Below, in pieces: positions 1,028-16,149 of a stretch of DNA of 64,000 nt. The position numbers and the translations under genes were made by a program. This DNA is from Archaeoglobaceae archaeon (lineage in GTDB: Archaea > Halobacteriota > Archaeoglobi > Archaeoglobales > Archaeoglobaceae): positions 1 through 64,000 of the forward strand of contig JALVJV010000013.1 in NCBI GenBank assembly GCA_027028145.1, in the 5' to 3' direction. The stretch's first letter is position 1; each line of letters opens with the position of its first letter. A model generated the notes under the pieces. The model searched no databases and was not told the origin of the DNA. It worked only from the letters and a program-made list of their open reading frames with translations.

Positions 1028-1201
1028 TTTCATGAAATTTCATGAAACTGCGAGCGAAGGTATTTAAATTCATTTTGCTAATAAAATTCATAGAACTGAG
1101 TATAAAGGAAAAGAAGAAAATAGAAGCTCTTTATAATATTGCATGAATTTTTGTCGAGTTTCATGAAGTTTCATGTATTATATACATGAAGTTTCATGAA
1201 A
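1028..1201. repeat. Iteron-like palindromic repeats, core TTTCATGAAA
   Basis: The 10-base palindrome TTTCATGAAA occurs back to back at 1028-1037 and 1038-1047 and again at 1192-1201. Near copies are TTTCATGAAG at 1159-1168, TTTCATGTAT at 1169-1178, and its inverse ATACATGAAG at 1182-1191. The second cluster is also an inverted repeat centred on TAT near 1180. Tandem short palindromes in a gene-free AT-rich tract of an element are typical of replication origins (iterons) or of multi-site operators. The adjacent winged-helix protein is the first candidate binder. Confidence 0.7.
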
Positions 1202-1597
1202 CCGACGACACATCCTTCATAGACCGACCTCTCCATTTCTCAAGAACTCTTTTCTCGATTTTTTTCAACTTCGAAGAATAAAAACGTTGACAACGTCTTC
1301 AACAACTTCTTTAACGAATACTAACAAGATCAAATCTGATCAAATCTAATAGAATTGCTGTTAAGTTCTATTATATTAGATAGACGGTTCTATTAGAATT
1401 ATCGAATAGAACAACAACATAACAATAACAAACAACCTATCTTAACTTGGATGCAACAACCTATGTGAAGGAAAAGAAAGAGAAAATTCTTGCTAATAAT
1501 TTATAAAGATAGATAAATCATATGTTCTATTTACATTAATTGGGAGATTCTATTATTCCAGCTGGGGATCAACCACTAAAGACATAGATACAAGCAC
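1202..1597. other. Gene-free AT-rich tract with a second repeat family
   Basis: No convincing gene lies here. GATCAAATCT is tandemly repeated at 1328-1347. GTTCTATTA/TAATAGAA strings then recur in both orientations at about 1345-1354, 1364-1380, 1387-1398 and 1402-1412, making overlapping hairpins. Together with the palindromes at 1028-1201 this is a roughly 550-base regulatory or origin-like region. A 74-codon leftward frame at 1576-1800 overlaps the coupled gene 1598-1837 in another frame and is not called. Confidence 0.5.
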
Positions 1598-1837
1598 TCA
1601 CTTATTGGTTTCAATTGGAATTTCCCATTTCTTAACTGTTGGATAAATTTGCAAAATAACACACTTATTCTCATGAAAATGTATATACCTAACCCAAATC
1701 CAAAGTTTTTGTTCTCTTTTAGGTTCACAGATTTTAGATTTATCTGATTCAAACCTTGAAACAACATGCTTGAATTCAAATTTAAAAGGTAATGATTCAC
1801 CCTCCTTCATAGCATCAATAGTATTAAATACACTCAT
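1598..1837 (-). CDS. Hypothetical protein, last gene of a three-gene element operon
   Basis: A 79-residue protein (MSVFNTIDAMKEGESLPF...) rich in aromatic residues and predicted beta structure (LWIWVRYIHFHENKCVILQIY). Its ATG overlaps the stop of the 1834-2388 gene in an ATGA arrangement. That coupling is the reason for choosing this frame over the competing overlapping one. No family is recognised. It is the third gene of a leftward operon of unknown function in the AT-rich part of the element. Confidence 0.6.
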   Translation of the reverse strand: MSVFNTIDAMKEGESLPFKFEFKHVVSRFESDKSKICEPKREQKLWIWVRYIHFHENKCVILQIYPTVKKWEIPIETNK

Positions 1838-2388
1838 AAAATTATTACCTCAACAACACCATCTTTCCTTCTTCTAATAAGTGTATTCTCGTCAAGCTCT
1901 TTAATTTCGCCCTTTTTTAACTCTATAATCTCTGCAGGAGTTAATTTTTCGAGCATTATTATTACTTCTCTCACTATTTTCTTTAGTTCGGGATACTTTT
2001 CGGACATTATATCGATCTCTACAAGCTTACGTAGCTCATCCTCATTTAATGTCTCCCCTTTTTCAATTTTTCTTTTCAATTCTTTTATTTTTTCTTTAGC
2101 TCTTTCAACCTTTTCAGAAGTTTCCCAATAGCTTGCAGGATTATCAATATATTTTGTTTCAATCTCTGAATAATCATGAGTTTTAGATAATACATCAATA
2201 GGTATCTTCCTTAAAAGTATATTTTCCAAGATTTGGCTTTTCTTTCTTTCTTCTAACAACTCTTTATATGTTTCTCTCAACTCCTTTTCTAATTCCATTT
2301 TTTCATGTTCAAGACGTTTAATTTCTGATTCATAAAATTCCCACTTAGTCTTGGGATATCTTATTGGTATTGTTCCTGTAGTCATCAT
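1834..2388 (-). CDS. Coiled-coil hypothetical protein
   Basis: A 184-residue charged protein. Residues about 15-55 form a long heptad-like helix (YESEIKRLEHEKMELEKELR), and a second helix pair at about 90-120 is Lys/Glu rich (AKEKIKELKRKIEKGE). The C-terminus ends in a short basic beta hairpin (RRRKDGVVEVIIL). The start overlaps the preceding gene by 44 bases and its stop overlaps the next start by 4. The family is not recognised. A structural or DNA-handling partner of the upstream 228-residue protein is possible, inferred only from coupling. Confidence 0.65.
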   Translation of the reverse strand: MMTTGTIPIRYPKTKWEFYESEIKRLEHEKMELEKELRETYKELLEERKKSQILENILLRKIPIDVLSKTHDYSEIETKYIDNPASYWETSEKVERAKEKIKELKRKIEKGETLNEDELRKLVEIDIMSEKYPELKKIVREVIIMLEKLTPAEIIELKKGEIKELDENTLIRRRKDGVVEVIIL

Positions 2389-3031
2389 TCATCACCTTTT
2401 TTTTAGCAGTAGTTAGGTTGTTAAGGATATTTAACATTTGTTTAGATTTTTCAACAATAATCTCCTGTATTTCCCTCATAAATGAAATTGCATCTTCTCG
2501 AATTGGCTTATCACTAAATTCTTCCAAACTTTCAAGAGATTTTTCAGTTAGATTTGCGATTAACCATAGCAAATAGTCTAAAGGTTCCTTAAAGTATAAA
2601 ATTTCTTTACCAAATGATAATGCTCTAACCTCAATGAAAGGTATTTGTAATTCTTCGTTATACTCGTAATCTACTTCGGTGGTCGTAATTGGATTAATGA
2701 ACTCATGTTCCTCAAACCAAATAGCATTAAATTCATCTTTTAGTATTGAATAGTTAGCAAGCTTTGAAAATATCCATCTTTTATCTTCCTCAAGCTCAAT
2801 ATTAGATAACCAGTTTTCTACGATCTCACTTTTATTGAGTATCTCACGTATTATCAAAAATACATTTTTATTTTTCTTTTTAAACGATCTCAAATTTTTT
2901 CTTATATCCTTTCCAAGTAGATAATCCTCTAATAAACGATTTAATATATCAAATACGACATCCGCATTATCACAAACAAACTTAACAGCCTCTATAAAAC
3001 CTTCCGGAATTTTCTCCTCGCCCTTTTCCAC
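2345..3031 (-). CDS. Hypothetical helical protein, first gene of the AT-rich operon
   Basis: A 228-residue protein, mostly helical and acidic in the first 120 residues (ILNRLLEDYLLGKDIRKNL). A middle segment around 115-150 is richer in beta strands and aromatics, and the C-terminus is basic (TTAKKKVMNDDYRNN). Its 3' end overlaps the next gene by 44 bases in another frame. Upstream at about 3032-3060 is an AT-rich stretch without a clear SD. No known domain is recognised. Codon use is strongly A/T-ending, unlike the genes after 4700, consistent with a different origin from the virion-gene block. Confidence 0.65.
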   Translation of the reverse strand: MEKGEEKIPEGFIEAVKFVCDNADVVFDILNRLLEDYLLGKDIRKNLRSFKKKNKNVFLIIREILNKSEIVENWLSNIELEEDKRWIFSKLANYSILKDEFNAIWFEEHEFINPITTTEVDYEYNEELQIPFIEVRALSFGKEILYFKEPLDYLLWLIANLTEKSLESLEEFSDKPIREDAISFMREIQEIIVEKSKQMLNILNNLTTAKKKVMNDDYRNNTNKISQD

Positions 3032-3170
3032 AGTGGTTATTTTTAAAAGATACTACTTAAACTTATCGAATTTTTTTAATCCCAAAGATAAAACAGTATT
3101 AAGAACAAGCAGGAGGTGAGAGGGAATCTCTACAAAAAGAAGACTAGAAGCTAAAATAGATTTTAATCGT

Positions 3171-3683
3171 TTGAAATTATTATTATTGGAGATTATTATG
3201 TTTTTTGGTGTAATTATCTTAGTGGGGGTTATGCAATATAAATTAGACCCATTCTGGCTTACAATACCACTAGTAGCCTTATCTTTACTTATAGCTAAAA
3301 TTAGTGAATTAAATGAATATCCACCCCAAAATCTTATAAGATTATTAAAATCTTATTATAAATTAACTTTTCCAAATTCACTAATTCTTCTTACGTTAAT
3401 TATTGGTATAATTCAGATAGGACCCTCAACAACAATTAAAGATATCCTTAATGTAGCTGTAAAGTCAGCTTCTTACTCTATATTCTTTGGACTTATGTTT
3501 GGTGGGCTTATAGCTTTTAGTGAAATATTAAGGTTTAGAACTCTTGAGGAACTTTTAGAAAAGCATAAGGACGCAGATTGTTATACTACCTTAGGAATCC
3601 TTTTAATGTTTTTTTTAATGCATGTTGTATATTTAGGAATAGCACTATTAATGTTAGCAATACCCTACATCTACAAAATATGA
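3171..3683 (+). CDS. Multi-pass membrane protein, unknown function
   Basis: A protein of about 170 residues with some five hydrophobic segments: roughly 5-20, 27-43, 70-86, 101-118 and 141-165. Short charged loops such as LRFRTLEELLEKHKDAD separate some of them. The start is uncertain. TTG at 3171 has no ribosome binding site, while a strong AGGAGGTGA at 3111-3119 lies far upstream and the frame is open from 3120 without an ATG, GTG or TTG before 3171. An N-terminus extended by basic residues, through an unusual start codon near 3126, is therefore possible. It is the only rightward gene between 1009 and 13072 and may be a cargo gene of the element. Confidence 0.6.
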   Translation: MKLLLLEIIMFFGVIILVGVMQYKLDPFWLTIPLVALSLLIAKISELNEYPPQNLIRLLKSYYKLTFPNSLILLTLIIGIIQIGPSTTIKDILNVAVKSASYSIFFGLMFGGLIAFSEILRFRTLEELLEKHKDADCYTTLGILLMFFLMHVVYLGIALLMLAIPYIYKI

Positions 3684-4390
3684 CTTAAGCTAACTTTGAG
3701 ATAGATGCTATTAAAGAACAAAGAGGCAGTCTTCAACTTAAATACAATTTTATAATGAATACCGAAAACTTACGAGCTTGGAGATTGATGCAGGATCCGG
3801 TAAGGATCCTGTAAATGCAGAATGTGAACTCGATTATAAATAATAGCAATAACGCTTTAATGATTATAAGTTCTGGTAGCTGGTTCCAGCCTAAGGTGGT
3901 TATAATCTATAAGTCTCGAGCTTAGTAACACTCCAAGGGTATTCTCGAGATAGTATAATGCGGACCTACAGGGTTAGCGATCTCCCGGTTACAACCTTTT
4001 TCAGCCGAAAGGAGCTAATAACACCGAGATTTAAATCTCGAAGTATTATGCTATTCTAAGCGAAAGAAGCTTGTTGATAAGTTTTTCATCATCCTGTGGT
4101 CCAACTTAAGTATGATACTCTTTAGCATAGTTGAGGACGTCCTCAGCATTGTCATAATATGACACTCGTTTAGACCAAAGCGAAGTATTACCATTCAACG
4201 TTGAAATAAAAATTCTGAGGGTTTGTTAATTAACGTCGGTTTAGAAAGGAGATTTCGGGAAAAGAAGAGATTTGCGAGGAGATATATTTCCGTCTGATGA
4301 AGGTGTTACTGAAGGATGATCCAGATGTATTAGTTGTTCAAAATTTCGCAATCTCGCAATTTTACAAAAATGGGGGATAAAAATTAGATT
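3684..4390. other. Gene-free, palindrome-rich tract; possible structured RNA or origin
   Basis: No open frame of note on either strand for 700 bases. Perfect inverted repeats cluster here: 3791-3798/3804-3811 (CAGGATCC, 5-base loop), CGAGATTTAAATCTCG at 4025-4040, TGAGGACGTCCTCA at 4132-4145, GTCAT-AAT-ATGAC at 4151-4163, and TCAACGTTGA at 4195-4204. A longer imperfect stem has TCTCGAG on the left (near 3913) and CTCGAGA on the right (near 3945). A stem with CTCC/GGAG arms follows at about 3980-4014. This density suggests a folded transcript or a site for replication or packaging rather than decayed coding sequence. Which one is not determinable here. Confidence 0.5.
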
Positions 4391-4522
4391 TTAATGAGTA
4401 AAAAATCGTATAATCCAAGGAAACGCCAAGATCAAGATGATTACTAATATCGTCCACCAGTCTATAAGACCTACACATGGTTTGATTTTAGGCTCAGGAG
4501 GAGGCGTTCGCGGTGCGATCAT
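4391..4522 (-). CDS. Single-span small membrane protein (43 aa)
   Basis: This 43-residue frame has a strong ribosome binding site (AAAGGAGGAATTG) just before the ATG. It has a proline-rich N-terminus (MIAPRTPPPEPKIKPC) and one hydrophobic helix (WWTILVIILILAFPWIIRFF, residues about 22-41). It follows the 45-residue gene by 21 bases on the same strand and ends the leftward virion-gene block. Its size and topology resemble minor membrane proteins of enveloped archaeal viruses; no family is recognised. Confidence 0.65.
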   Translation of the reverse strand: MIAPRTPPPEPKIKPCVGLIDWWTILVIILILAFPWIIRFFTH

Positions 4523-4543
4523 TCAATTCCTCCTTTACACTAA

Positions 4544-4681
4544 TCAAAATTTGAAACTGATCATGAGAATAAATAGAGTGAGGAGCCAGCAATACCAGAA
4601 TCTATGATCTTTGGTAACACCATACACAACACACCAGATCCATAAAATTAGTATTATAAAGCAGGCTAATGCATTTGCCAT
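4544..4681 (-). CDS. Small membrane protein with two hydrophobic segments (45 aa)
   Basis: A 45-residue frame starting at ATG 4681, with GGGAG about nine bases upstream and 19 bases after the stop of the preceding gene. Residues 1-21 (LACFIILILWIWCVVYGV) and 28-43 (FWYCWLLTLFILMISF) are hydrophobic, separated by a short charged turn (TKDHR), giving a helical hairpin. Placement inside the same leftward series and the spacing support expression. The function is unknown; a small virion or envelope protein is the simplest reading. Confidence 0.62.
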   Translation of the reverse strand: MANALACFIILILWIWCVVYGVTKDHRFWYCWLLTLFILMISFKF

Positions 4682-4700
4682 GTTCTAACTCTCCCGAACC

Positions 4701-5036
4701 TCAAGGATAATGTTCCTGCATCCAGTCGGATGCTTCCTCGTATATTTCCGCAATTTCCTTCCACTTCTTCTTAGTGCTTGGACTGAACTTGGGATTCTTA
4801 GCGCCAGCCCTTGCCCTGTTAGCCGCATACTGCGTTGCCCATAGAATCGTAAGCTTTCGTTCCTTCGACCTTGCATGCTTGAACAGATTCTCCAACTTTT
4901 TGCAAGCCTCTTCGGCACCTCTTATCGACCTAAACGTGACTATCCGAGCCAAGTCCTTATGTTTAGGCGGTTTAAACAGATCTCCCTTCTTCGACTTTCC
5001 TAAGGTCTTCTTAAACTTCCTACCCAAAACCACCAC
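4701..5036 (-). CDS. Basic hypothetical protein of the virion-gene block
   Basis: About 111 residues and strongly basic: the N-terminus is RKFKKTLGKSKKGDLFKPPK and the middle has HARSKERKL and ANRARAGAKNPKFSPSTKKK. The C-terminal third is acidic/helical (EIAEIYEEASDWMQEHYP). The charge pattern suggests nucleic acid binding, which in a virion-gene block could mean genome packaging; this is inference. The start is ambiguous between GTG at 5036 and TTG at 5027, the latter better spaced from GGAGG. It overlaps the end of the preceding gene. No hydrophobic span. Confidence 0.68.
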   Translation of the reverse strand: MVVLGRKFKKTLGKSKKGDLFKPPKHKDLARIVTFRSIRGAEEACKKLENLFKHARSKERKLTILWATQYAANRARAGAKNPKFSPSTKKKWKEIAEIYEEASDWMQEHYP

Positions 5037-5214
5037 CTCCGAACTTCTTTTTCAAAAATTCATCCGCTCTCCTCTCAAATTCGATAAGAGAACCGTCGAT
5101 CTTTTTGATAATCGAGACTATATTCCCTTCCATTACCTTCCGATAGTTTTCTATCACCTCCACGTTGAACAGATCCTCGTATCTGACCAGCTTATCCCCT
5201 ATCTTCAGCAACAT
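5020..5214 (-). CDS. Small hypothetical protein (64 aa)
   Basis: The frame is open from 5265, but the preceding gene stops at 5225 and GGTGGTGGGG stands directly before ATG 5214, so the product is probably MLLKIGDKLVRYEDLF... with 64 residues. It has alternating charged helix and beta sequence (VSIIKKIDGSLIEFERRADEF) and a glycine tail (KKKFGGGGFG). The 3' end overlaps the next gene. Family not recognised. Confidence 0.62.
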   Translation of the reverse strand: MLLKIGDKLVRYEDLFNVEVIENYRKVMEGNIVSIIKKIDGSLIEFERRADEFLKKKFGGGGFG

Positions 5215-5224
5215 CCCCACCACC

Positions 5225-5629
5225 TCACTCCCTCGTCTTATACAGGAGATACAGCAATCCGGCAAAGCTGAAGATGAACACCCACATGAGTATGATCTGA
5301 ATCGGTTCTGTGAACGGGCTGACGAAGTTAAGCACGGTCAACAGCACACTCAGAAGAATGCTCATTACTGCAATTCCCTCAACGGATCTCGTCTTGAACC
5401 AAGTTAGCCCGATGACGGCTAAACATAAAGCGAATAAGCCAAAGCCGTGCGTTTCGGTTACGAGCATTTTCTCCAACGGCTTAAACATCGTAGTGTTGTT
5501 GCTCATAAAGCCCTGCAACCAGCTTATTTGCTCACTCATGTTTATGCTAACGTTGGGTAGTGTAGTATTAAACCGGAATGCGGGAGGATTCGTGAAGTTG
5601 TTAATGTCAACTTGAGTGAAATCAACCAT
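5225..5629 (-). CDS. Membrane protein of the virion-gene block, three spans
   Basis: Residues 1-50 after the ATG are soluble and Asn/Thr rich with several N-glycosylation sequons (NVSINMS, NNTTMF). Three hydrophobic segments follow (FGLFALCLAVIGLTWF, GIAVMSILLSVLLTVLNFV, PIQIILMWVFIFSFAGLLYLLY), ending with KTRE. The topology suggests an exposed N-terminal domain with a membrane-embedded C-terminal part. An upstream GTG at 5638 is possible, but GAGGTGGTG is better spaced for ATG 5629. It sits immediately after the 126-residue membrane gene. Likely an envelope protein; no family assigned. Confidence 0.72.
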   Translation of the reverse strand: MVDFTQVDINNFTNPPAFRFNTTLPNVSINMSEQISWLQGFMSNNTTMFKPLEKMLVTETHGFGLFALCLAVIGLTWFKTRSVEGIAVMSILLSVLLTVLNFVSPFTEPIQIILMWVFIFSFAGLLYLLYKTRE

Positions 5630-5631
5630 TT

Positions 5632-6012
5632 TCACCACCTCACGGCTCTAAATCCTCTTATCAAGTTGTAAACGGTTCCGGCGAATGCTATCGCATTCAT
5701 AACGTATATCGGGAAAGCAAGCTCGGGAGGGAGACCGAGCATCTCTATCGTCTTCTGGACGAGCATCGGTGCCGAGATCAGCATCGTAAACACCAACTGC
5801 AACGACGTTTTTATCAGGTCGAGCATAGCGCCTACGTTTCCGAGTAATCCGTTGCTCTGATTGTTCAAAGCGTTAACCTGCGTTTGAATTTCGTTCTGAA
5901 GCTGAGCTATATTCGTAATCCGATAAACGTAAGGATAAGCGGTAGTATATGAAGCAACGCCGATTGCGAGCGTTACGCATAAGCAGAAGATGTATATCTT
6001 AAAGAAGTTCAC
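5632..6012 (-). CDS. Membrane protein with N-terminal signal/anchor
   Basis: A 126-residue protein whose GTG start overlaps the stop of the 805-residue gene (GTGA) and is preceded by GGTGAGG. Residues 4-22 are a signal or anchor (IYIFCLCVTLAIGVASY). Residues 35-65 are Asn/Gln-rich helix (LQNEIQTQVNALNNQSNGLL), and two further hydrophobic stretches follow at about 68-85 and 100-118. It could be an accessory membrane subunit for the large surface protein encoded just upstream, inferred from coupling only. Confidence 0.72.
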   Translation of the reverse strand: MNFFKIYIFCLCVTLAIGVASYTTAYPYVYRITNIAQLQNEIQTQVNALNNQSNGLLGNVGAMLDLIKTSLQLVFTMLISAPMLVQKTIEMLGLPPELAFPIYVMNAIAFAGTVYNLIRGFRAVRW

Positions 6013-8426
6013 GATTCCTCACCCCTTCGCAGGAAGCTTAACCCTGTTATGAATGCGGATACAGCGATCACAGGGTAAGGAACGTGAGGAGTCAGACCGC
6101 TCCAAGCTCCAAAACCTAACAATAAGGTAGCTATAAGCAGGGCGAATGGCATGTTGGATCTCGTTCCGGCCAATACCAAGCAACAGCAACCCAAGAGTAG
6201 GAACACTTCAACAGGTAGCTTAAGCCATCCCGGAACGGGCAGAGTTACGTTTGTGAAGTTTAATTCGGTCCGATTGGTTGAGATGTTGAATCCTCCACCA
6301 ATGTTGATTATATAATAGTCCGATGCGGGATATAGCGTAAGGACTTTCTCTCCGTTGTTTATGTTTATTTCATACGGTCTGGTTTTGTTAGCCCAAAATA
6401 CGACCGAACCGTAACCGTCGGTCGTTAGATTGATTACCCTACCGGTAGTTATGTCTTTAATAGCGACCGGAACGCCGACTAAGACGTGCCCTGCTTTGAT
6501 AATCTGCAGGGTAACGGAGTGGGTAGGAGCATATTGAATTGTTTGAGAACCTCCCTCGATCAGGGAACATATAACGGTTAAAGAGGTATCGTTGTTCAGA
6601 TAGATTTCTTTGATTCCGTAGAATTTGTTATCCGAAGTGGTAACGGAGATAGAGTATAATCCGGGAGGCAACAAAGTAATTGCGGTTCCGTTTTCGGTTT
6701 TCATGCTAATGACGTTACCGGTATCCTTATTTTCAATGCTGACTTGGAATGAGGAGAGATAATTGCCCAATGTCGTTTTGGCTTTAACCGTCAGCAGGTA
6801 TAATGGCGTAAGAGTAAAGTCTATCCTCGTTTTACCGGTAAATACAACCGAAGATTGAACGGTTTTAAATCTCTCTTTTTCAACTTTTATTGTGTAGGTT
6901 CCATCTGATGGAGGTTTTATATCGTAGAATCCAGCCGAATTAGAGTAAACGGTTGCATTCCAAGTGTCGTTGTAAACCGTAACTTTAGCACCCTCAACAG
7001 GATTTCCAAAAGGCTCAACCCTAATTATACCGTAAATCCCGGTTAAACTGGTCGAATTGATTAGAGTAAAGTTCACGTAATAGATTCCAGCCACATCAAA
7101 GTTTAATGTTCTTATATCGCTTTCATATCCGGTTAAACTTGCCTTTGCATCTATATCAACTTCTGCAAGTAAGCCTGCGACTTGATAGTATCCGTTCGAA
7201 TCCGTAGTGGCATTATACCATTTCCCCGCTTGATTAAACGAAACTAATGCGTTTGCTAAGGGTTTTCCGTTCTGATCCTTTACGTATCCTCTGATCGCGA
7301 CTTGCTCGAGAACTCCAAATGAATCGTAAGCCAATTCCACTCCATCACTCCTCGTGAGAATTGCGTAATACGTTCCTCCCGTTATTGGTGCCCTGAATTT
7401 GATCGTTCCAGATGGTAAAGATGTTAGCTGAATGGTGTCCACGAGATCGCCGTTCGAATCGTATATCTTGATGTAATAACTATATGAGCTATCATAGGGA
7501 TCAATGTTATAGGTCGCTGTTATTAATTCATTTGAATAATATTCATCTTTATCAAGTATTATGCTATTATTAGCTTGGCCATCGGCGTAGTAGAAGTATG
7601 TCGTCGACGCTGTTAGGTTGTCAACAATTAGTTCGACTTGATACAATCCCAAATCCCAATTCGTGATGTTTACGCTTGCCGTGCCGAACGTTTTGTTGCC
7701 CAGATCTATCGTATCGATGATTTTGCCAGAATCGAAATCTCTTATGTTTATTTTAACATCTGAAGCCCAAGGACGAGCATCATATTTAAGATTGAGGAAT
7801 GTGCTTGTTGTCGGTGTTTTATATAATATGTTGTCAACATCTTTCACTTCTACGAAATCGTAGTTGGCGATATCGTCGATGTAAAGCGACAAAGAGTTTG
7901 GATCAACAGCTCCATAACCATAATGATAATAAATAATTATTTTGTTTATTTTCGTTGCTCCTGTTCCTGTCCACTCTTTGACATTTCCATCCACATATAG
8001 TTGTAACGTATCTCCTACGAGCGTGACATATACGTAATGCCAATTTCCGGTTGTTAACGCATTTGATAAATACACCTTACCGTTGTCCAACAAAACACCA
8101 ACTTCGTATGTTGCGGCTGATACTGCTCCCGGATAAACCCTGAAAGCCAATATTCTTGAACTTGGAACATTTATATATACTTCTAACGTTGTATAGTAAT
8201 CCATTTTAGCTACAAACTTTCCAGCATAATCATTTCCCAGATTATATACAGACGCTGTATATGAAACATATACTGAACTTCTTGAGTAAATACCGTGTGT
8301 TAAATTGATGTGTCCATCGTCGAAATCCTCGATCATCGTAGCGCTTGCCAGTCCGAGCAAACTGATGATAATCAAGAATGCCAATGCAACCCGAAACAGC
8401 ACATTATAACCTGAAAAATCTCTCAA
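6009..8426 (-). CDS. Large viral surface (spike/adhesin-like) protein with LamG and carboxypeptidase-regulatory-like domains
   Basis: An 805-residue secreted protein. Residues 9-29 are a signal segment. Residues about 32-195 form a concanavalin/LamG-type jelly roll, with the typical GNWHYVYVTL and LQLYVDG strings. Ig-like beta domains follow to about 370. Two or three carboxypeptidase-regulatory-like (prealbumin) modules lie at about 375-640 (GYVKDQNGKPLANALVSF; NPVEGAKVTVYN). The C-terminus has three hydrophobic spans (about 735-800) and a basic tail (RRGEES). TTG at 8426 is chosen because GGAGGTGGAGG precedes it. LamG plus membrane anchor is known from adhesins of archaeal spindle-shaped viruses such as PAV1, and pleomorphic viruses use an anchored spike. 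It is the best candidate for host attachment or fusion. Confidence 0.82.
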   Translation of the reverse strand: MRDFSGYNVLFRVALAFLIIISLLGLASATMIEDFDDGHINLTHGIYSRSSVYVSYTASVYNLGNDYAGKFVAKMDYYTTLEVYINVPSSRILAFRVYPGAVSAATYEVGVLLDNGKVYLSNALTTGNWHYVYVTLVGDTLQLYVDGNVKEWTGTGATKINKIIIYYHYGYGAVDPNSLSLYIDDIANYDFVEVKDVDNILYKTPTTSTFLNLKYDARPWASDVKINIRDFDSGKIIDTIDLGNKTFGTASVNITNWDLGLYQVELIVDNLTASTTYFYYADGQANNSIILDKDEYYSNELITATYNIDPYDSSYSYYIKIYDSNGDLVDTIQLTSLPSGTIKFRAPITGGTYYAILTRSDGVELAYDSFGVLEQVAIRGYVKDQNGKPLANALVSFNQAGKWYNATTDSNGYYQVAGLLAEVDIDAKASLTGYESDIRTLNFDVAGIYYVNFTLINSTSLTGIYGIIRVEPFGNPVEGAKVTVYNDTWNATVYSNSAGFYDIKPPSDGTYTIKVEKERFKTVQSSVVFTGKTRIDFTLTPLYLLTVKAKTTLGNYLSSFQVSIENKDTGNVISMKTENGTAITLLPPGLYSISVTTSDNKFYGIKEIYLNNDTSLTVICSLIEGGSQTIQYAPTHSVTLQIIKAGHVLVGVPVAIKDITTGRVINLTTDGYGSVVFWANKTRPYEININNGEKVLTLYPASDYYIINIGGGFNISTNRTELNFTNVTLPVPGWLKLPVEVFLLLGCCCLVLAGTRSNMPFALLIATLLLGFGAWSGLTPHVPYPVIAVSAFITGLSFLRRGEES

Positions 8427-8685
8427 AAGCCTCCACCTCCAAAGCCTTTCTGAATGCCCAAATGATAGCCACTACGATGAAGATGTAGGGAATCCAAGCC
8501 ATGATGTAAGCGCTGAAATTTGCTAAATCCACGATCTCTTTACAGTGGATACTATTTCCGAACCAGATTGCCCATTCTTTTAGATATTTCCAAACCGGGA
8601 ATATTGCAAACCAATACACTACGCTAACGGCTATTATCGTTGCAATCATCTGAAAAAATATTGTAGCACTGCCTTTTTTGTCCAT
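8404..8685 (-). CDS. Small membrane protein, two spans
   Basis: The product from ATG 8685 is about 93 residues (MDKKGSATIFFQ...). Hydrophobic segments at about 7-26 and 53-75 flank a short loop with one Cys (NSIHCKEIVDLA). The C-terminus is a charged helix (ALEVEAFERFFRL). GAGGTG precedes the ATG, and a GTG three codons upstream is the alternative start. Its 3' end overlaps the start of the large surface protein by 23 bases, so the two are translated together. The function is probably structural; no family recognised. Confidence 0.7.
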   Translation of the reverse strand: MDKKGSATIFFQMIATIIAVSVVYWFAIFPVWKYLKEWAIWFGNSIHCKEIVDLANFSAYIMAWIPYIFIVVAIIWAFRKALEVEAFERFFRL

Positions 8686-8695
8686 TAGCATCACC

Positions 8696-10879
8696 TCAGA
8701 ACAGAATATCCCATATATCTTTCACAGGACTCTTAACAGCCTCTATCTCGCTCTCTGATCTATTCGGACTTACCAAGTCGAGTCCTCCCAAATCTATCGG
8801 CAATCTTAATTCCGGAACGTTAATGTCTGGAACCTTATACGGAGGGCGGGTATGTGGAAGCGTAGTATCAGTTTTAGGCTTAGGAGTCGTAATCGTAGGC
8901 ACATCGGGAATCGTTAGCTCAGGAATGCCGATGTCCGGTATCGTTTGCTCGGGAATACTAAGCTTCGGAACCACTCCAATATCCAAGAATTCGCCAAGCT
9001 TTTCCGGAACATCTAACGAGGGTTTGGTAACGACCTTTTCGAACGTATCTAGGACCGTATCCAAACCAGTCTTGAATCCCAATCCAACATCAAAGTCGAC
9101 ATTTACAACGTTATCCGTCAGATCTTTCAATTTCTGATCTACATCTACGTTAATAGCGGGCTGAATATGATTAGGATTTCTGATTCCTCCAAGATATCCA
9201 AATCCTACACCGTATAGCGGCTTTAAACGATCGTAAGCATCCTCCGCAATCCTTGCAATCGGCTTGAGCATTTCTCCAACGTCGAGCTTAGATTCAAGCG
9301 GGCTGAATAGATCTTCCGGATTTACCTTAGGGTTGTAAAACGCCTTTTCGGTCTTCGGAACTTCCTTAACTTCTAAGGCTGATACCTCAGCACCTGCGGG
9401 ATTGATCTGCTCTGATAATATGCCACCGGACTCTATCTTTTTACTCTCTTCTTTGGAGATCCTCTCGGGCAACTGAGCGATGCCATCGAGGTCTTTCGAA
9501 ATAGCATCTAACCGTTCGTTTAATTCTTTGCCGGGAACTTCGGGAGATTCAAGCATTCTCCATCGAATTAATTTGACGTTGCCCTTGTAATTCACGTAAT
9601 CTTTACCTAACGGTGTATCCGTAAGCTCGCTGAACGGTAGCTCGTTGATACGAATCGGAATATCATCTAGCACGCTGAATCTTTCCGAGATGAACCTAAT
9701 CTGTTTTGTGATCGGAGAAACCTTCATGGCGGATATTCGGGTTACTGCATCCTCCATAGTCGTTTTGAGAATTCCCTTGTGTCCGAGCGGACTCTTATAG
9801 AATTGATAAACCTCTATTTTCTGAATAGGTTCGTTCGTTATTATCTTTTGGGTTAGCTTGCTCTCGGGCTTAACTCCAAAATTGATATTACCTTCTCCCA
9901 CATCGACGTTAAAAATAGATCTGATCATTTTGGCATGAGTATCTTCGATTTTGTTCAGCTTTAGCAACGCCGGATTGTCGGCGAATATTTTCTTTTCTCC
10001 CGATTCCGTCGTAATCACGGTTAGTTCTCCTACTTTATTCATTTTTGTCAGCTTTGAGAGAGGTTCGTTGATTTTGCCCGTAACTCGTTCGGCAACCTTT
10101 GAAAGCATGGGATCTATTTTGGATGCCAAGTTCCCGACCGATGTTTTTACGGTATCCGGAACGACTTTCCCAACGGCTTTAGCTCCTGCTCCAACAGCCT
10201 TAGCAATACCTTCTCCAGCTAAGTTTTCCATCTCGGCTTGATAACCTAAATGCCCGTATGCACCTATCAACTCTTTCTCGGCATCGGTTAATTTCTCTCC
10301 CTTAAGTCTTGCTTCCCATCCGCCCAATCCCGCTAAAAAACCTTCTACGGGTCTCGTTGCCAATCCGACGCAACCAGCTATAAGATCGTTAACTACCGGA
10401 ACTGGAATCTTCCGGTGAATCCACTTCTCGGCTCCCTCTTCCCATTTACTCAATTTATATGCTAAATTGAACAAAGCCGATTTCTGCCTTAAAGATTCTT
10501 CAGCTTTTAAAGCCTCAATAGGAGATTCTATTTTGTTTACAACCTGTATATCATTACCTTTAATTCCATGAATCAACGCCTTAGCCTGCGGACTCAGTTG
10601 TTCGTTCAGATACTGCAGGGTTTCCGCCTTAACGAATGCCTTATGTATTTCCGGAGAATCCGGCGGTTGTTTCGGCTCGGCTGCCGATACTTCTGGATGC
10701 GGTTTGGAATTAGATGCGGCACAATGCAAGGCACCGTCCAAATCCAACGTTGATTCCGAATTTACTACCGGTTGCGGTTGCTGATTTGACTGACCGTAAA
10801 TTTCCGGGAAATGCTGCTTCAGATAAGCCTCGTATTCCTCCTCCGTTTGAAATACGCCGTAAGGAGTGTAGATAGTCAT
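8696..10879 (-). CDS. Large structural-type protein with proline-patterned C-terminus
   Basis: About 727 residues from ATG 10879 (GAGGTG upstream; a GTG three codons earlier is possible). The N-terminus resembles a short alpha motif (TEEEYEAYLKQHFPEIYG). Residues about 160-250 are Ala/Gly rich and weakly hydrophobic (AKAVGAGAKAVGKVV), as in membrane-active virion proteins. Residues about 640-710 carry an irregular repeat with I/V-P at intervals of 5-8 residues (IPEQTIPDIGIPELTIPDVP; VPDINVPELRLP). No transmembrane helix is clear. It lies between two membrane-protein genes of the virion block. A tail, scaffold or tape-like role is conceivable but unsupported by any recognised domain. Confidence 0.72.
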   Translation of the reverse strand: MTIYTPYGVFQTEEEYEAYLKQHFPEIYGQSNQQPQPVVNSESTLDLDGALHCAASNSKPHPEVSAAEPKQPPDSPEIHKAFVKAETLQYLNEQLSPQAKALIHGIKGNDIQVVNKIESPIEALKAEESLRQKSALFNLAYKLSKWEEGAEKWIHRKIPVPVVNDLIAGCVGLATRPVEGFLAGLGGWEARLKGEKLTDAEKELIGAYGHLGYQAEMENLAGEGIAKAVGAGAKAVGKVVPDTVKTSVGNLASKIDPMLSKVAERVTGKINEPLSKLTKMNKVGELTVITTESGEKKIFADNPALLKLNKIEDTHAKMIRSIFNVDVGEGNINFGVKPESKLTQKIITNEPIQKIEVYQFYKSPLGHKGILKTTMEDAVTRISAMKVSPITKQIRFISERFSVLDDIPIRINELPFSELTDTPLGKDYVNYKGNVKLIRWRMLESPEVPGKELNERLDAISKDLDGIAQLPERISKEESKKIESGGILSEQINPAGAEVSALEVKEVPKTEKAFYNPKVNPEDLFSPLESKLDVGEMLKPIARIAEDAYDRLKPLYGVGFGYLGGIRNPNHIQPAINVDVDQKLKDLTDNVVNVDFDVGLGFKTGLDTVLDTFEKVVTKPSLDVPEKLGEFLDIGVVPKLSIPEQTIPDIGIPELTIPDVPTITTPKPKTDTTLPHTRPPYKVPDINVPELRLPIDLGGLDLVSPNRSESEIEAVKSPVKDIWDILF

Positions 10880-10889
10880 TGCCGACACC

Positions 10890-11306
10890 TCACCTGTTAA
10901 TCACAACTGGCTTGGATCCCGCTGGAACCGTCGGAGGCTTAGGTATTGTCGGAACCGAAACTCCTCCGTGTGTAAAGATCCAAATTGCGATGACCGCCAA
11001 GGCGAAAGCCATGATCAGCACTACGAACAGGAAATACTTTCTGAAATCGTCTTTAATAGGTTGTATGAAATCTAAAATTAGCTTCAAATCGTTCTTAGCC
11101 ATCGCTTCAGCGAATAGGTGAGCGTTGGAACTCCTCAACCAGAAATACGCTTTCTGAGGATTCACCGTTTTAAACATAGCTGCCTGAACGTATAGGCTTA
11201 AAATCGGAAATAGTAGGTCTGCGTATTTGATAACCTTCTCCTCAGCCTTCTCTCGGACTTCATCTTCTTTACGTCCTAACTTCAGCTTCAATTTCACTTC
11301 TAACAC
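10890..11306 (-). CDS. Virion-block protein with single C-terminal membrane span
   Basis: A 138-residue protein. A basic, charged N-terminus (LKLKLGRKEDEVREKAEEK) is followed by a soluble helical domain. One membrane span lies at about 95-115 (YFLFVVLIMAFALAVIAIWIF). A proline-rich tail follows (VPTIPKPPTVPAGSKP), similar in flavour to the proline pattern of the next gene. The start overlaps the preceding gene by 38 bases. Family not recognised. Confidence 0.7.
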   Translation of the reverse strand: MLEVKLKLKLGRKEDEVREKAEEKVIKYADLLFPILSLYVQAAMFKTVNPQKAYFWLRSSNAHLFAEAMAKNDLKLILDFIQPIKDDFRKYFLFVVLIMAFALAVIAIWIFTHGGVSVPTIPKPPTVPAGSKPVVINR

Positions 11307-11808
11307 CTCTATTCATCTGATTAATCCAATTAACAAACTCTTCAAACGTTTTGAACGTTCTACCCTGTCTGATTGCTATTTCCATGTATCTCTCGAATTC
11401 TTCAACGCTGATTCCAAATTCTTTCTCAAGCCAGTCAAAAAACGCCATCAGATCGATTCTAAGCCCCTTTCCGATGGATCTCCAGATCGTTTGCAACGGA
11501 ACCCCATCTAATCTATATACTGCGTCGTAATCCACCGGGATTTTGGTGTATTTGTCGAGAACGGCATAACCGCTTTCAAATTTGCAGGGAATTAGATTAA
11601 CGCTTTTCGTCTCACTGCGAACGTCCAACAGCATCTTTTTCGCTATCTTCGCATGGAAAACTTTAAACATCGTCGGAACGCTCGTTCTGAGCCATATTAG
11701 TGTAAATATACTTGTTAGCGATGATGCAATTATCAGCAGTCCGATCTTGAAATATAGCCCGCTGAAAAGCAGAATCATCGCGAGGACAATTATAGACTCA
11801 ACCAACAT
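11269..11808 (-). CDS. Virion-block protein with N-terminal membrane hairpin
   Basis: A 179-residue protein. Two hydrophobic segments at about 4-42 (SIIVLAMILLFSGLYFKIGL; LLIIASSLTSIFTLIWLRTS) are followed by a cytoplasmic or lumenal soluble domain rich in charged helices (EKEFGISVEEFERYMEIAIR) that ends near RSEIEAEVRT. The ATG overlaps the previous stop by 11 bases. The arrangement, one protein with an N-terminal anchor then one with a C-terminal anchor, suggests a membrane-associated complex. No known family. Confidence 0.7.
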   Translation of the reverse strand: MLVESIIVLAMILLFSGLYFKIGLLIIASSLTSIFTLIWLRTSVPTMFKVFHAKIAKKMLLDVRSETKSVNLIPCKFESGYAVLDKYTKIPVDYDAVYRLDGVPLQTIWRSIGKGLRIDLMAFFDWLEKEFGISVEEFERYMEIAIRQGRTFKTFEEFVNWINQMNRGVRSEIEAEVRT

Positions 11809-12253
11809 TCTGCTTTACCTCCTGCTGAATTTCGGCTCTACCGTCTTTGCTTTCTCCAAATAGCCTGCTAAGCAAACCTTTCTTCCCGGATTCATCCGAC
11901 TTCTGCGGTAGAGGAGACGGAATGTAACGCTCGATCACCTGTGTTGTCGGTGCGGACAAGAGTTTAAGCGTCGTTCCCTGCAAACTCTTCCCGCCCACGA
12001 TCCTTATCAAATCTCTGATAGCCAAATGATTGAACAGGAGTTCCGGGTGTAAATCGAGCTCGTAAGGTCGCATGTTCATCAGCTCGTAGTTTCTTTGAAT
12101 ATCAATACTCAGCTGAATGCTCTTCAAATCGTAAATGCTGAGAATTGTTGAGGCTAAATCCTTCCTGAGCTGAATGTGCTTGTTCTGAATAGGTCTCGGT
12201 ATGTCCGGAAAGACCGCAAACTTCCACCTATCGTTTAGAATGCTCTCGTTCAC
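11798..12253 (-). CDS. Soluble hypothetical protein of the virion block
   Basis: A 151-residue protein starting with a GTG that overlaps the previous stop (GTGA). There is no hydrophobic span; it is mixed alpha/beta (RKDLASTILSIYDLKSIQL) with a flexible basic C-terminus (LPQKSDESGKKGLLSRLFG). It is the only clearly soluble product among the first genes of this block and could be an internal or assembly protein. Not recognised. Confidence 0.7.
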   Translation of the reverse strand: MNESILNDRWKFAVFPDIPRPIQNKHIQLRKDLASTILSIYDLKSIQLSIDIQRNYELMNMRPYELDLHPELLFNHLAIRDLIRIVGGKSLQGTTLKLLSAPTTQVIERYIPSPLPQKSDESGKKGLLSRLFGESKDGRAEIQQEVKQNVG

Positions 12254-12603
12254 GTTAATCCCTCCAGCTTGAGTTCTTTCTCGATTCTGAGCCGTTTGGC
12301 AAGTTCGACCAAGTTCCAGAACACCTTAACGCAGCAGAAAATACCGAAGAGCATAAACATCAAAGCTAAAGGCAAACTTTGCTGCAGAACTGTCGTCGTG
12401 TAGGTGTAAACCGTAGTATTCACGTTGTAGATGTAGGTATAGGGAACCTCGATCTGCATCGCACCCAAACTTGCTATAAAGTTCAGCCCGGCTCCGAGAG
12501 CCGGAATAAGGATGTTAAGATGTCTTAAGTCGTAATTGATCAGACTCAAAAAAAAGAGGGTTAACGAGATTCCTGCGGTTATGTAAAACGCCGTGTCGAG
12601 CAT
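12250..12603 (-). CDS. Four-span membrane protein of the virion block
   Basis: A 117-residue protein with hydrophobic segments at about 5-22, 30-46 and 78-98, and a weaker one between. A Tyr/Thr-rich exposed loop (YTYIYNVNTTVYTYTTTVLQ) and a basic helical C-terminus (LAKRLRIEKELKLEGLT) complete it. Its ATG overlaps the previous stop (TAATG). As the second gene of the block, paired in size with the candidate major protein, it may be a second membrane-embedded structural subunit. Confidence 0.7.
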   Translation of the reverse strand: MLDTAFYITAGISLTLFFLSLINYDLRHLNILIPALGAGLNFIASLGAMQIEVPYTYIYNVNTTVYTYTTTVLQQSLPLALMFMLFGIFCCVKVFWNLVELAKRLRIEKELKLEGLT

Positions 12604-12956
12604 TAAACACCTCCTCCACCGCCCTCTCCTCTGCTCGTGAACAGCGAAATTATTGCGAACGCAACGAGAGCTATCGCGATTATGAATATGAACTGCAGAA
12701 TTGAGAAACCGACGGTTCCAGCAGTGTTAATGAAGCTTACAGTTTGGTTAGCCCACGTCGGGCTTGATATGCTGTTAGCCAATGAGATTCCCAGACCGCC
12801 CATGTAACCCATGATAATACCCAAGACTATAACGACAAGAATCAGCGTTCCCGCGGCTATGGCTATGTTCGCCCCTCCAGTCCTGTTGTATAGCATTGCC
12901 ATTTTATACCAATTCCTCGCTTTCAAAATTCCTCTAACCTTAGAACTCGGTCTCAA
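12603..12956 (-). CDS. Candidate major virion membrane protein (two-helix type)
   Basis: A 117-residue protein that opens the leftward block. A TTG at 12956 is the start, with a strong GGAGGTGA seven bases before it. The N-terminal 25 residues are basic (SKVRGILKARNWYKM). Two hydrophobic helices follow, about 30-55 (IAIAAGTLILVVIVLGIIMG) and 80-106 (FSILQFIFIIAIALVAFAII), joined by a Gly/Ser/Asn loop, with a glycine tail (RGEGGGGGV). The same layout is found in the small major capsid proteins of spindle-shaped archaeal viruses and in the membrane proteins of pleomorphic ones. The first position and strong ribosome site suggest high expression. Assignment rests on topology, not on a sequence match. 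Confidence 0.68.
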   Translation of the reverse strand: MRPSSKVRGILKARNWYKMAMLYNRTGGANIAIAAGTLILVVIVLGIIMGYMGGLGISLANSISSPTWANQTVSFINTAGTVGFSILQFIFIIAIALVAFAIISLFTSRGEGGGGGV

Positions 12957-12974
12957 TCCGTTCTCACCTCCTAC

Positions 12975-13060
12975 CTATCGAAAATCTATTAAAATAAAAT
13001 AAAAAATTTATTAAACATTAATATACATTAATGCGTAATAATGTTTATTAATGAATAGCA
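12975..13060. promoter_or_regulatory. Divergent promoter region with ATTAAT repeats
   Basis: Between the leftward virion block and the rightward regulator gene lies AT-rich sequence. ACATTAAT occurs directly repeated at about 13014-13031, with TTATTAATG at 13046-13054 after the sequence turns through GCGTAATAATG, giving an imperfect inverted array. TTTATTA at 13044-13050 is 25 bases before ATG 13073, as expected for a TATA box of a leaderless transcript. The repeats are probable binding sites for the AbrB-like protein, switching between the two blocks; this is inference. Confidence 0.55.
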
Positions 13061-13072
13061 CGGATAATATAC

Positions 13073-13273
13073 ATGCCCAAGCTAAGTTCACTTATGCGGG
13101 TAGTTCGAGTTCAATATTCCAAATCAAGGACAGGTCAATACCATATAACTATCCCGAAAGAGATTATTAAGCAATTCGGACTTAAAAAGGGCAGTCTTCT
13201 TACGATAGTCGATGATGAGGACTGTATCAAGCTCATTCCGACGGAAAAGGTGAAGGAAAAGCTTTTGAGGTGA
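13073..13273 (+). CDS. AbrB/SpoVT-type transcriptional regulator
   Basis: A 66-residue protein containing one swapped-hairpin AbrB domain at residues 10-55: SRTGQYHITIPKEIIKQFGL then KKGSLLTIVDDEDCIKLIP. Such proteins bind DNA as dimers. The spindle virus PAV1 carries a regulator of this domain family, from memory. It opens the rightward block, overlaps the next frame, and its promoter region lies between the two divergent gene blocks. It is the natural candidate for the early/late switch of the element. Confidence 0.85.
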   Translation: MPKLSSLMRVVRVQYSKSRTGQYHITIPKEIIKQFGLKKGSLLTIVDDEDCIKLIPTEKVKEKLLR

Positions 13274-13278
13274 TCGCT

Positions 13279-13761
13279 TTGAATTTCGTTCCTCAGGTGA
13301 AGGATATCGATTTTAGGAGAGACGGTTATACGGTAAACGTTTGGCAGGCAATAGCCCTCGCAAGGGATTCAATTTTGGACGAAGAACAGTTCGATAAGGC
13401 GCTTGATGCTTTAGAGGCAATTCTTATCCCGAGCATGTCCTTAGATGAGTTAAGAGAGTTGGAGGAAATCAGAAAGAGAAGGGATATGATAGTGAATACC
13501 GTTATGCAACTGAAAAAGGCGAAGATGTTGGAATCCGCATCTCCTTTCGATAGTCAAGTCCTTCAGGCTACAGAATACTACAACAAGGTTCTGTCATCTG
13601 CGAAGTATGAGTTTAATCTGTTGAGATACAAACTGCTGATCAAAACAGCTTACAGAATTTTCGTCGTGAAGGACTCTCAGCCGTATTCGGACAAATCCCT
13701 TCTTCCGGACATTCAGAACGTTTACGATAAATATGAAAAGTATATAGCGGAGGGAGAGTGA
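13279..13761 (+). CDS. Helical hypothetical protein (early-type block)
   Basis: About 160 residues. The frame can start with GTG at 13270 overlapping the AbrB stop, but GAGGTGAT lies just before TTG 13279, so that start (MNFVPQVKDIDFRRD...) is preferred. The product is almost entirely helical with acidic and basic heptads (LDELRELEEIRKRRDMIVN). It is translationally coupled to the gene downstream. No family recognised; position next to the regulator and ATPase suggests a replication or maintenance role. Confidence 0.65.
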   Translation: MNFVPQVKDIDFRRDGYTVNVWQAIALARDSILDEEQFDKALDALEAILIPSMSLDELRELEEIRKRRDMIVNTVMQLKKAKMLESASPFDSQVLQATEYYNKVLSSAKYEFNLLRYKLLIKTAYRIFVVKDSQPYSDKSLLPDIQNVYDKYEKYIAEGE

Positions 13762-14072
13762 TGAAAGGCATTATCAGGGAAGATATACAGCAGATATCTT
13801 ACGATATAATACTTTTGAGCACAATTTTAGATATCAAAGAGGCTAAGAAGGAGGGCGATTGGGATCGAGCGTTTAGATTGATCGATGAACTTGAGAATTT
13901 GTTGGCACCTTACGGCATTGAGGAATTCCTAAGAAAGGAAATGAACGGTAAGGAGTTCAAAGATGCTAAGGAACTATACACTTTTAAGGAGAGAGTATTG
14001 CTGAAAAAGGCTAAGATGTGCGGTTTTCTGCCGCCGGGTAGATATGCTGGATCCAACAAGAGCAATATTTGA
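13761..14072 (+). CDS. Small helical hypothetical protein (early-type block)
   Basis: A protein of about 103 residues from ATG 13761, overlapping the previous stop by one base and preceded by GGAGGGAG. It is helical and acidic in the first 60 residues (DIKEAKKEGDWDRAFRLIDE), with a basic helix (KERVLLKKAKMCGFLPPGR) near the end. It sits 9 bases before the ATPase gene and is probably its co-translated partner. Not recognised. Confidence 0.65.
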   Translation: MKGIIREDIQQISYDIILLSTILDIKEAKKEGDWDRAFRLIDELENLLAPYGIEEFLRKEMNGKEFKDAKELYTFKERVLLKKAKMCGFLPPGRYAGSNKSNI

Positions 14073-14081
14073 GGTGGCTTT

Positions 14082-14972
14082 ATGGATATTCTCAAGACCA
14101 TCGCTGGTCTGATCAAACATCGTCTGTTCTTCTACGATGAGCATTATCCTATGGTTATCGTAGGTTATCCGGGTGTTGGCAAAAGTTCAACAGGTTTAGC
14201 TCTTGCCGAGGCAGTAGATGAGACTTTCGACGTCGAAAGGGTTGCTTTTAAACCAAGTGAATTCTTCGAAATTGCTAAAAATATCGAAAGAGGACAGGCG
14301 ATAATGTTCGACGAAGCTGGTATTGGTCTGCACGCAAGAGAGTGGCAGACCACTACGAACATCATTTTCTCTAAGTTGACGCAGATCTACAGATTTCTAA
14401 ACGTCTTTGTGGTTTTTACGGTTCCGGATATAAATTACATTGATTCTCATGCCAGAAATGAGATGAAGGCTATTCTCGAGTTGACGCATAAGGACATACA
14501 TGATGAAGTTGTGGTAGGTCATTGGTGGGTAGTTAAGAGGAACAGAGCCTTTGGAATAACGAACTATGAAAAATTGAAGATATATGATAATGGAGATCCG
14601 ATTGAAATAGATCCCGTAAAACTACCCCGTCCGTCCAAGCGGTTATGGAAAGCCTACAAGAGAAAGTCGGAAACTTACAAGAAAAACATTCTCGACGAAC
14701 TTTACGAGGAACTGCAAAAGCTTGAAGAGGGTGTAGTAACTAAAGGAATTGATAAAAGAACGGTTAGGCGACTTATAAATGAAGAAAAAGCTCTTATTAG
14801 AGCTTATGAATATTTCAGTAAAGAGCTTGGAATGAGCGATAGACAAATTGCGGGCGTATTTGGAGTATCTCATGTAACCTTACTAAATTGGAAATCCATT
14901 TGGAATTCTGGATCTAACGGCAATGACAAAGAAATTTCACAAGTTGGTAAATTGGTAAGTGGTAAGCAATAG
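14082..14972 (+). CDS. Viral P-loop ATPase with C-terminal helix-turn-helix
   Basis: A 296-residue protein. The Walker A motif is at residues 28-36 (GYPGVGKSS) and a Walker B at 72-78 (QAIMFDEAG). Sensor-like Thr/Asp residues follow (VVFTVPDINYID). The core resembles the short viral and plasmid ATPases with a DEAG motif found across archaeal mobile elements. Residues about 240-273 are a separate helix-turn-helix (MSDRQIAGVFGVSHVTLLNW) joined by a charged linker, so the ATPase is probably directed to specific DNA. GAGGTGG precedes the ATG. It ends the rightward block and is followed by a hairpin (AACCTAT/ATAGGTT). Genome packaging, replication or partition are possible roles. Confidence 0.8.
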   Translation: MDILKTIAGLIKHRLFFYDEHYPMVIVGYPGVGKSSTGLALAEAVDETFDVERVAFKPSEFFEIAKNIERGQAIMFDEAGIGLHAREWQTTTNIIFSKLTQIYRFLNVFVVFTVPDINYIDSHARNEMKAILELTHKDIHDEVVVGHWWVVKRNRAFGITNYEKLKIYDNGDPIEIDPVKLPRPSKRLWKAYKRKSETYKKNILDELYEELQKLEEGVVTKGIDKRTVRRLINEEKALIRAYEYFSKELGMSDRQIAGVFGVSHVTLLNWKSIWNSGSNGNDKEISQVGKLVSGKQ

Positions 14973-15264: not shown

Positions 15265-16104
15265 TTAACCCTCCAGAGGAAACTTATCTACAACCTTAGA
15301 ATAGAACTCATCAGCTTGTCTAGCCTTTGCCAAGTAATGCATAGCACCAACGTTAGCTGGTCTTCTACCTTGGATAAAGTCTGCAACCTCTGGGGGAACT
15401 CCATGCATTATTAAAAAGTTGTAATGCCATTTTCTGATAGTGTTAGCGGAAACTCTTTCATGCTTTATTAGATCCTTAGCATGAGAATAGCTTATCTCGA
15501 TCTTTCTGAGTTTCTTGGCAAAGTCTGCTGGCATGTATGCAAAGAATCCCCGTTTATTGCCTTTTGACGTGCTAATTATCGGATATCTTGCAATTCCTTT
15601 CTCTTCGATGACTATAAGGTTTTGAACATCGAAGTTTGCAAGCATTTCAACAGCTTGAGAAAGTCTTATGCCTGAATAAACAAGCAATTCAAACAGAATC
15701 TTTGCTTTTTCGTCTGTCAGATCCCTATAAGCTTCAATAAGCTCTTCATCACTTATAAAGACATCTCTTGAAGATGCCTGTTCAATCTTACAGACCTTTC
15801 TGAACTTATCGAGAATTGCAGAATCTACACCTTTAACCTCTTCGTAGAAGTTCAAGAGGTTTCGAAAAGCTTTGGCAACCCATCTTTTCACACCTTTGGA
15901 ATCAATTCCAGATAAGATATTATACAGATCTTCAGGGGTCTTTATCTCTTTATTAGCGGCATATCTGTCCAAATAATTAAGATAATACGTCGCAGTTGTA
16001 ATCTCAATCCTATTGTAAAGCCACTGCTTGAACTCTTCCCTTATGGCAGGATAGTTGATCTTGAAGCTGATGGAAGTCCTTTCGAGCCGGTGACCCGGGT
16101 TCAA
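15265..16104 (-). CDS. int: Tyrosine recombinase (integrase) of the element
   Basis: A 279-residue archaeal tyrosine integrase. Visible catalytic positions are Arg147 (SGIRLSQ), basic residues around 181-184, Arg224 with His227 (TIRKWHYN), Arg247 (GRRP) and the nucleophile Tyr257 (MHYLAKA). An N-terminal SAM-like/core-binding part occupies residues 15-110. The frame starts at a TTG lying inside the tRNA-Glu fragment, so the first codons are read antisense to the tRNA T-arm; a shorter start is possible. After integration the sequence upstream of the gene is chromosomal: trmB ends 46 bases away on the same strand, so int could be read through from it. The gene is intact, so excision may still be possible. 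Confidence 0.88.
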   Translation of the reverse strand: MNPGHRLERTSISFKINYPAIREEFKQWLYNRIEITTATYYLNYLDRYAANKEIKTPEDLYNILSGIDSKGVKRWVAKAFRNLLNFYEEVKGVDSAILDKFRKVCKIEQASSRDVFISDEELIEAYRDLTDEKAKILFELLVYSGIRLSQAVEMLANFDVQNLIVIEEKGIARYPIISTSKGNKRGFFAYMPADFAKKLRKIEISYSHAKDLIKHERVSANTIRKWHYNFLIMHGVPPEVADFIQGRRPANVGAMHYLAKARQADEFYSKVVDKFPLEG

Positions 16105-16119
16105 ATCCCGGCCGGAGCA
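16079..16119 (+). other. attR: Right attachment site: 3' part of tRNA-Glu(UUC)
   Basis: The sequence runs from the anticodon loop (CTTTCGA, anticodon TTC at 16081-16083) through the 3' anticodon strand GCCGG, the full T-arm (CCGGG-TTCAAAT-CCCGG) and the acceptor strand CCGGAGC to discriminator A at 16119. The 5' side does not match: AAGTC stands where CCGGC should be. So the identity block starts in the anticodon loop, where tyrosine integrases usually cut. It shares 30 bases with the tRNA-Glu(CTC) at 23084, but the anticodon stem differs, so the target was the UUC isoacceptor. Confidence 0.85.
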
Positions 16120-16149
16120 TCGTTTTAACTTGACATCTCAATAAGGAGC

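Follow-up and report, generated by a model that had tools for sequence, protein, structure and literature searches.

A provirus of an Archaeoglobaceae archaeon with a putative spindle-virus module whose closest characterized relative is the lemon-shaped Haloferax virus LSV-48N

LSV-48N is a lemon-shaped virus of Haloferax that integrates into its host and maintains a chronic, nonlytic infection, and its particles are lost on curing (PMC12714723). Its genome (PP151251) encodes, in order, small membrane proteins, an 824-residue protein, two tiny membrane proteins, a 904-residue spike, and further small membrane proteins. The class Archaeoglobi is infected by the pleomorphic virus AvPV1 (PMC10919331), and among the families newly created in the 2025 archaeal update of the International Committee on Taxonomy of Viruses, Thalassapleoviridae alone covers this class; our literature search found no spindle-type virus of Archaeoglobi. 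Here, we describe a block of 14 genes at positions 4391-12956 of a stretch of Archaeoglobaceae DNA (the window) that corresponds to positions 1 to 64,000 of contig C13 in a genome of 1.52 Mb (24 contigs, 99.9% complete). We assign a probability of roughly 0.8 to the reading that this block is the module of a temperate spindle (lemon-shaped) virus that is built on membrane proteins, belongs to the LSV-48N lineage, and operates by the mechanism proposed below. Judged from sequence comparison, the closest characterized virus is LSV-48N, whose lineage was until now known only from Haloferax.

The 14 open reading frames (ORFs) are tightly packed, run leftward, and fill the interval at exactly the limits given in an earlier note on this DNA: 43 residues at 4391-4522, 45 residues at 4544-4681, and the other 12 from 4701 to 12956, most neighbors among these 12 being contiguous or sharing a few bases. 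The module DNA is 93 to 94% identical to that of a second genome of the genus (G003:C33), where 12 of the 14 proteins find counterparts at 84 to 100% identity. Substitutions between the two fall at codon positions 1, 2, and 3 in numbers of 141, 98, and 369, and this excess at third positions, together with the protein identity, indicates that the 12 ORFs are real, functional genes. The earlier note had read the block as the morphogenesis module of an enveloped, apparently little-known archaeal virus; our analysis upholds a morphogenesis module of such a virus, with a virion rich in membrane proteins. Its description of the products as mostly small membrane proteins holds for eight of the 12 larger ones, in which hydropathy indicates at least one membrane segment, but not for g3, g6, g11, and g12, which have none. 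It had also recognized no capsid, terminase, or tail gene; in agreement, we found none of these families for the module proteins in Pfam or PHROGs. Phage records contained no nucleotide or protein match to g1 or g8, and in IMG/VR we found none to g1, to the ATPase, or to the profiles of g9 and the capsid protein.

To compare the module with LSV-48N, we built separate profiles for each position from an Archaeoglobi-side and a haloarchaeal-side group and scored each of the 256 possible pairings. The positional pairs that stood out scored 98.7% for the ATPase, 96.6% for g9 (126 residues), 94.6% for the spike, and 59.4% for the presumed capsid protein, whereas the remaining 252 of the 256 pairings reached 2.9% or less. 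Because g9 had served to find the haloarchaeal loci, only the ATPase, spike, and capsid pairs are fully independent of selection. In the reverse search, the haloarchaeal (LSV-type) g9 profile matches the window g9 at 5.5e-7, and the capsid-like protein of genome G002 acts as a bridge that is matched by the capsid profiles of both clades (1.5e-11 and 5.7e-5). The two viruses resemble each other in a module order with two large proteins, in a B251/DnaA-like ATPase gene that diverges from the module in LSV-48N as in the window, in an ATPase, a spike, and a g9-type protein that are homologous and a capsid protein that probably is, and in a temperate, integrating lifestyle. They differ in that the window element belongs to a host class related to hyperthermophiles and uses an SSV-type split integrase, most of the other module genes are not alignable, and the left arm is different.

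The same gene order is present in two more distant Archaeoglobaceae elements, and we found syntenic modules at L032, L058, L041/L064, L056, L057, and L059. L032, an 18,994-bp contig of another genus (G065), carries the complete module with its gene order preserved, with 38 to 56% identity to the window for most small module proteins. Its integrase is unsplit and contains a tRNA-like segment, consistent with a free form, and L032 is probably a free circular genome. A search with the g9 profile recovered G377, G167, and G341, which are presumably haloarchaeal judging from their close LSV-48N homologs, and G160, from another family of the phylum. The arrangement is the same in all four, except that in G160 g6 is displaced and g4 and g5 are apparently fused. 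The presence of the module in the presumed haloarchaeal genomes and in the other phylum genome implies that the lineage spans several classes.

The earlier note had proposed AvPV1 as the first comparison to make, and this proved wrong: the two share no more than a small basic protein and a distantly related integrase. A pleomorphic virus of the AvPV1 type (Thalassapleoviridae/Pleolipoviridae), that is, a vesicle with a VP3-like matrix protein and a VP4-like fusogen, would account for the shared host class, for the similarity of g12 to AvPV1 gp07 (33% over 87 residues, E 7e-6 by blastp), and for an integrase 34% identical to that of AvPV1. With profiles of Thalassapleoviridae VP3 and VP4, neither the window nor the relatives that we tested gave a match at E<0.01, and the best profile score for a VP3-type protein was 3%. 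No homolog of VP3, VP4, gp08, or gp09 is found in the window element, and comparison with the AvPV1 genome shows different gene sizes and order. The module lacks a pleolipovirus-type NTPase; the ATPase of the element is located in the divergent operon and scores 49% against the AvPV1-type NTPase in profile comparison. An HRPV VP4-type fusogen was likewise absent from the 50 best Protein Data Bank (PDB) structure matches of the spike. The order and four of the genes fit a lemon-shaped virus instead, so that we consider the pleomorphic reading very improbable, whereas the spindle-shaped alternative, which the note had also raised, is favored by the LSV-48N match. We discarded an hhalign score of 99.9% between g12 and gp07 as circular, since gp07 is itself in that profile, and use the blastp result as the evidence. 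The gene for g12/gp07 has passed between viruses that share hosts but are not otherwise related.

Membership in Fuselloviridae proper, as an SSV-like virus, would explain a different set of features: an SSV-type integrase that has its attP in the gene and is split on integration, a B251-type ATPase (profile scores of 93-95%, with 93% against SSV B251), a similar genome size, a small two-helix membrane protein, and a spike of ≈800 residues. SSV VP1 is also the best match of the merged capsid profile among the virus proteins compared (23%). Integrase and ATPase are widely exchanged, however, and g1, g2, g7, g8, g9, and g10 show no significant match to the SSV structural-module profiles tried. 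The capsid pairing with Fuselloviridae VP1/VP3 reaches 1.1%; against the VP4 (C792) spike, the window g8 profile has no match above the scores listed, and the haloarchaeal spike profile attains 6.3%. Structural-gene similarity to SSV1 and SSV Lassen is not significant, and gene order is unlike that of SSV1; we consider this placement very unlikely. Halspiviridae share an ORF16-type ATPase (95.6% against His1), and His1 structural protein 27 is among the structural matches of the spike, but His1 has a protein-primed DNA polymerase and its capsid protein is not significantly similar. Against SSV and His1 alike, the ATPase alone is significant.

The C-terminal part of an SSV-type tyrosine integrase, int(C) (15265-16137, minus strand; PF16795, 2.1e-52), reads out of attR (16078-16119, plus strand), a 42-nt 3′ fragment of tRNA-Glu(UUC) that extends from the anticodon loop to the 3′ end. 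This fragment is identical to C21:1166-1207, within an intact tRNA-Glu at C21:1163-1240, and int(N) (C21:902-1216) enters that tRNA in the frame CSGRDLNPGHRLER, which matches the frame of int(C). The SSV-type integrase inserts the provirus at the anticodon loop of tRNA-Glu(UUC), which divides the integrase gene into int(N) and int(C) and leaves an intact tRNA at the left end. Given this SSV-type arrangement of int(N) and int(C), the left end lies on C21, with a gap before window position 1; the element extends rightward to 16119 and leftward past position 1 onto another contig. An ORF at 1-390, which has a homolog within L032 (E 0.008), was considered as int(N) and rejected, as the C21 int(N) enters the same tRNA in the matching frame. 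An AT-rich left arm (1-3683) with genes for ribbon-helix-helix (RHH), winged helix-turn-helix (wHTH), coiled-coil, and membrane proteins is probably part of the same element. G002 carries a different provirus of the same type at the same host site, flanked by orthologous TrmB, 604-residue, and RND genes. Its integrase is 78% and its ATPase 75-76% identical to those of the window element, whereas the module has diverged; these observations confirm the right boundary and show that regulatory and structural halves have been exchanged.

One might instead regard the element as a defective or domesticated remnant, or as a nonviral element that releases vesicles, given that it is known from its genes and is broken across contigs in the assembly. 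All module frames are intact and under purifying selection, though, and the module also occurs in several hosts and in an apparently episomal contig with an intact integrase, so we think this very improbable.

The module, together with a divergent MazE/AbrB-like regulator and the ATPase, forms a conserved block. On the plus strand, a candidate repressor of the AbrB/MazE type (66 residues, 13073-13273; PF04014, E 4.6e-9) is followed by two small conserved genes of 163 and 104 residues (13270-14072) that adjoin the gene for a P-loop ATPase with a C-terminal helix-turn-helix (296 residues, 14082-14972; phrog_5484, 2.8e-12). The 163- and 104-residue genes have homologs in L009, the former also in L032, and an r3-type gene occurs in L058. 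The ATPase matches the LSV-48N DnaA-like protein at 1e-19 by tblastn, and its 98.7% profile score refers to LSV-48N/L056. Between the window and G003 (L009), identity is no more than 34% for the regulator, compared with 96% for the next two genes, which suggests heteroimmune exchange of an immunity repressor.

Within the module, all on the minus strand, g1 (12603-12956, 117 residues) combines a pair of long membrane helices with a tail rich in glycine and is the presumed major capsid protein, with homologs in G003, G065, G009, G160, G002, and C23. An AF2 model places its helices at residues 5-60 and 66-112 (pLDDT 72); the Foldseek matches of this model are all generic helical hairpins, with E values no better than 0.76, and profiles from the capsid, g9, and 730-residue alignments yielded nothing beyond chance matches in the PDB. 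Downstream lie g2 (12250-12603, 117 residues, three membrane segments; 56% to L032, syntenic in L058 and L041), the soluble g3 (11798-12253, 151 residues; 50% to L032, L041 homolog at E 0.0024), g4 (11269-11808, 179 residues, N-terminal membrane segment; 47% to L032), and g5 (10890-11306, 138 residues, one membrane segment; 49% to L032), the counterparts of g4 and g5 apparently being one fused gene in L058. The soluble 730-residue g6 (8696-10888), with distant homologs in L032 and L022, occupies the slot of the 824-residue LSV-48N protein, and the profile match between the two is not significant. It contains 56 prolines at a density highest in the last tenth (12 of 73 residues), so that the label of proline-patterned in the earlier note suits mainly the C terminus and not the rest. 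Next are g7 (8404-8694, 96 residues, two membrane segments; 45% to L032, L064 match at 1.1e-6) and the 805-residue g8 (6009-8426), fairly called spike-like: it has a signal helix, an N-terminal beta domain that varies, repeats of the Ig/CarboxypepD_reg type, and three C-terminal membrane helices, and Pfam matches it to CarboxypepD_reg, FlgD-Ig, and, weakly, LamG. Residues 1-190 of g8 are 55% identical to the sister provirus and residues 191-805 are 93% identical, as would be expected if the N terminus were a receptor-binding tip. The membrane protein g9 (5632-6012) is the best cross-lineage marker. The block closes with g10 (5225-5638, 137 residues, three membrane segments; 38% to L032, homologs in L058 and L064), g11 (5020-5265, up to 81 residues, start uncertain; 40% over 40 residues to L032), the 111-residue basic protein g12 (4701-5036), the hydrophobic g13 with a near-identical ORF in L009, and g14, whose C-terminal half is hydrophobic.

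From these features, we propose that the regulator would repress the leftward operon from the divergent promoter region (12957-13072) and that, on derepression, the element would excise and replicate with the help of the ATPase. The 117-residue two-helix protein and the genome would assemble in the membrane into a lemon-shaped particle, with the 805-residue protein as an anchored terminal spike whose variable, lectin-like N-terminal domain may bind the host surface. The 730-residue soluble protein may be an internal, terminal, or scaffold component, and the 111-residue basic protein may bind DNA. The particles would bud from the cell and not lyse it; a lemon-shaped particle released in this way appears the likeliest product.

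Several points weigh against this interpretation. The virus is known here from its genes, and its left end is on another contig, across a gap. The capsid profile links to LSV-48N at only 59.4% and falls below significance against SSV VP1 (23%) and His1 (5%), and the capsid label is inferred in both viruses. At least eight of the 12 larger module genes are without a detectable LSV-48N homolog, and the g8 model is of low confidence (pLDDT 56), its structural matches being generic beta-repeat proteins.

Other elements were observed nearby or in related genomes. The window's own genome holds a second, very distant provirus of similar general layout (L022:1111-13039, G000:C10), with proteins of 839 and 895 residues, an AvPV1-type NTPase inside the block, and no recognized capsid protein. 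A homolog of the presumed capsid protein lies near an SSV-type integrase in an element of ≈10 kb that also encodes a 1117-residue primase-helicase (L010:9186-19165, G009) and in a remnant (L024:161-2967, G000:C23); we detected no other module genes in either, and both are possible satellites. Beside the module, at 3740-4390, lie two conserved noncoding blocks that are found at six or more locations across the genus (other copies at L022:3-941, L068:17838-18552, L009:140-1062, L065:9802-11545, and L067:9985-10519) and are not confined to proviruses. They bracket varying small cargo (RelE-like, HicA-like, wHTH, an unknown ORF, or nothing), and a near-palindromic ATTTTTAT...ATAAAAAT ends most copies. 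These blocks may be a nonautonomous mobile cassette with exchangeable cargo; a structured RNA was not supported.

Judged against LSV-48N, Fuselloviridae, Thalassapleoviridae/Pleolipoviridae, and Halspiviridae, the element is new and probably stands at the level of a family. More tentatively, and rather doubtfully, the spindle-shaped viruses of Archaeoglobi might form a family-level group within one phylum-wide lineage, with the capsid-only elements of G009 and C23 as satellites that are packaged with capsid protein of their own supply. If our reading is correct, the obvious but wrong guess of AvPV1 is corrected, and Archaeoglobi would gain its first reported spindle-type virus group, as far as the literature searched goes. 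A Haloferax-only lineage would then reach relatives of hyperthermophiles as well as a further family of the phylum, and the four alignable genes would allow study of spindle virion construction and of a possible divergence of the lineage with its hosts.

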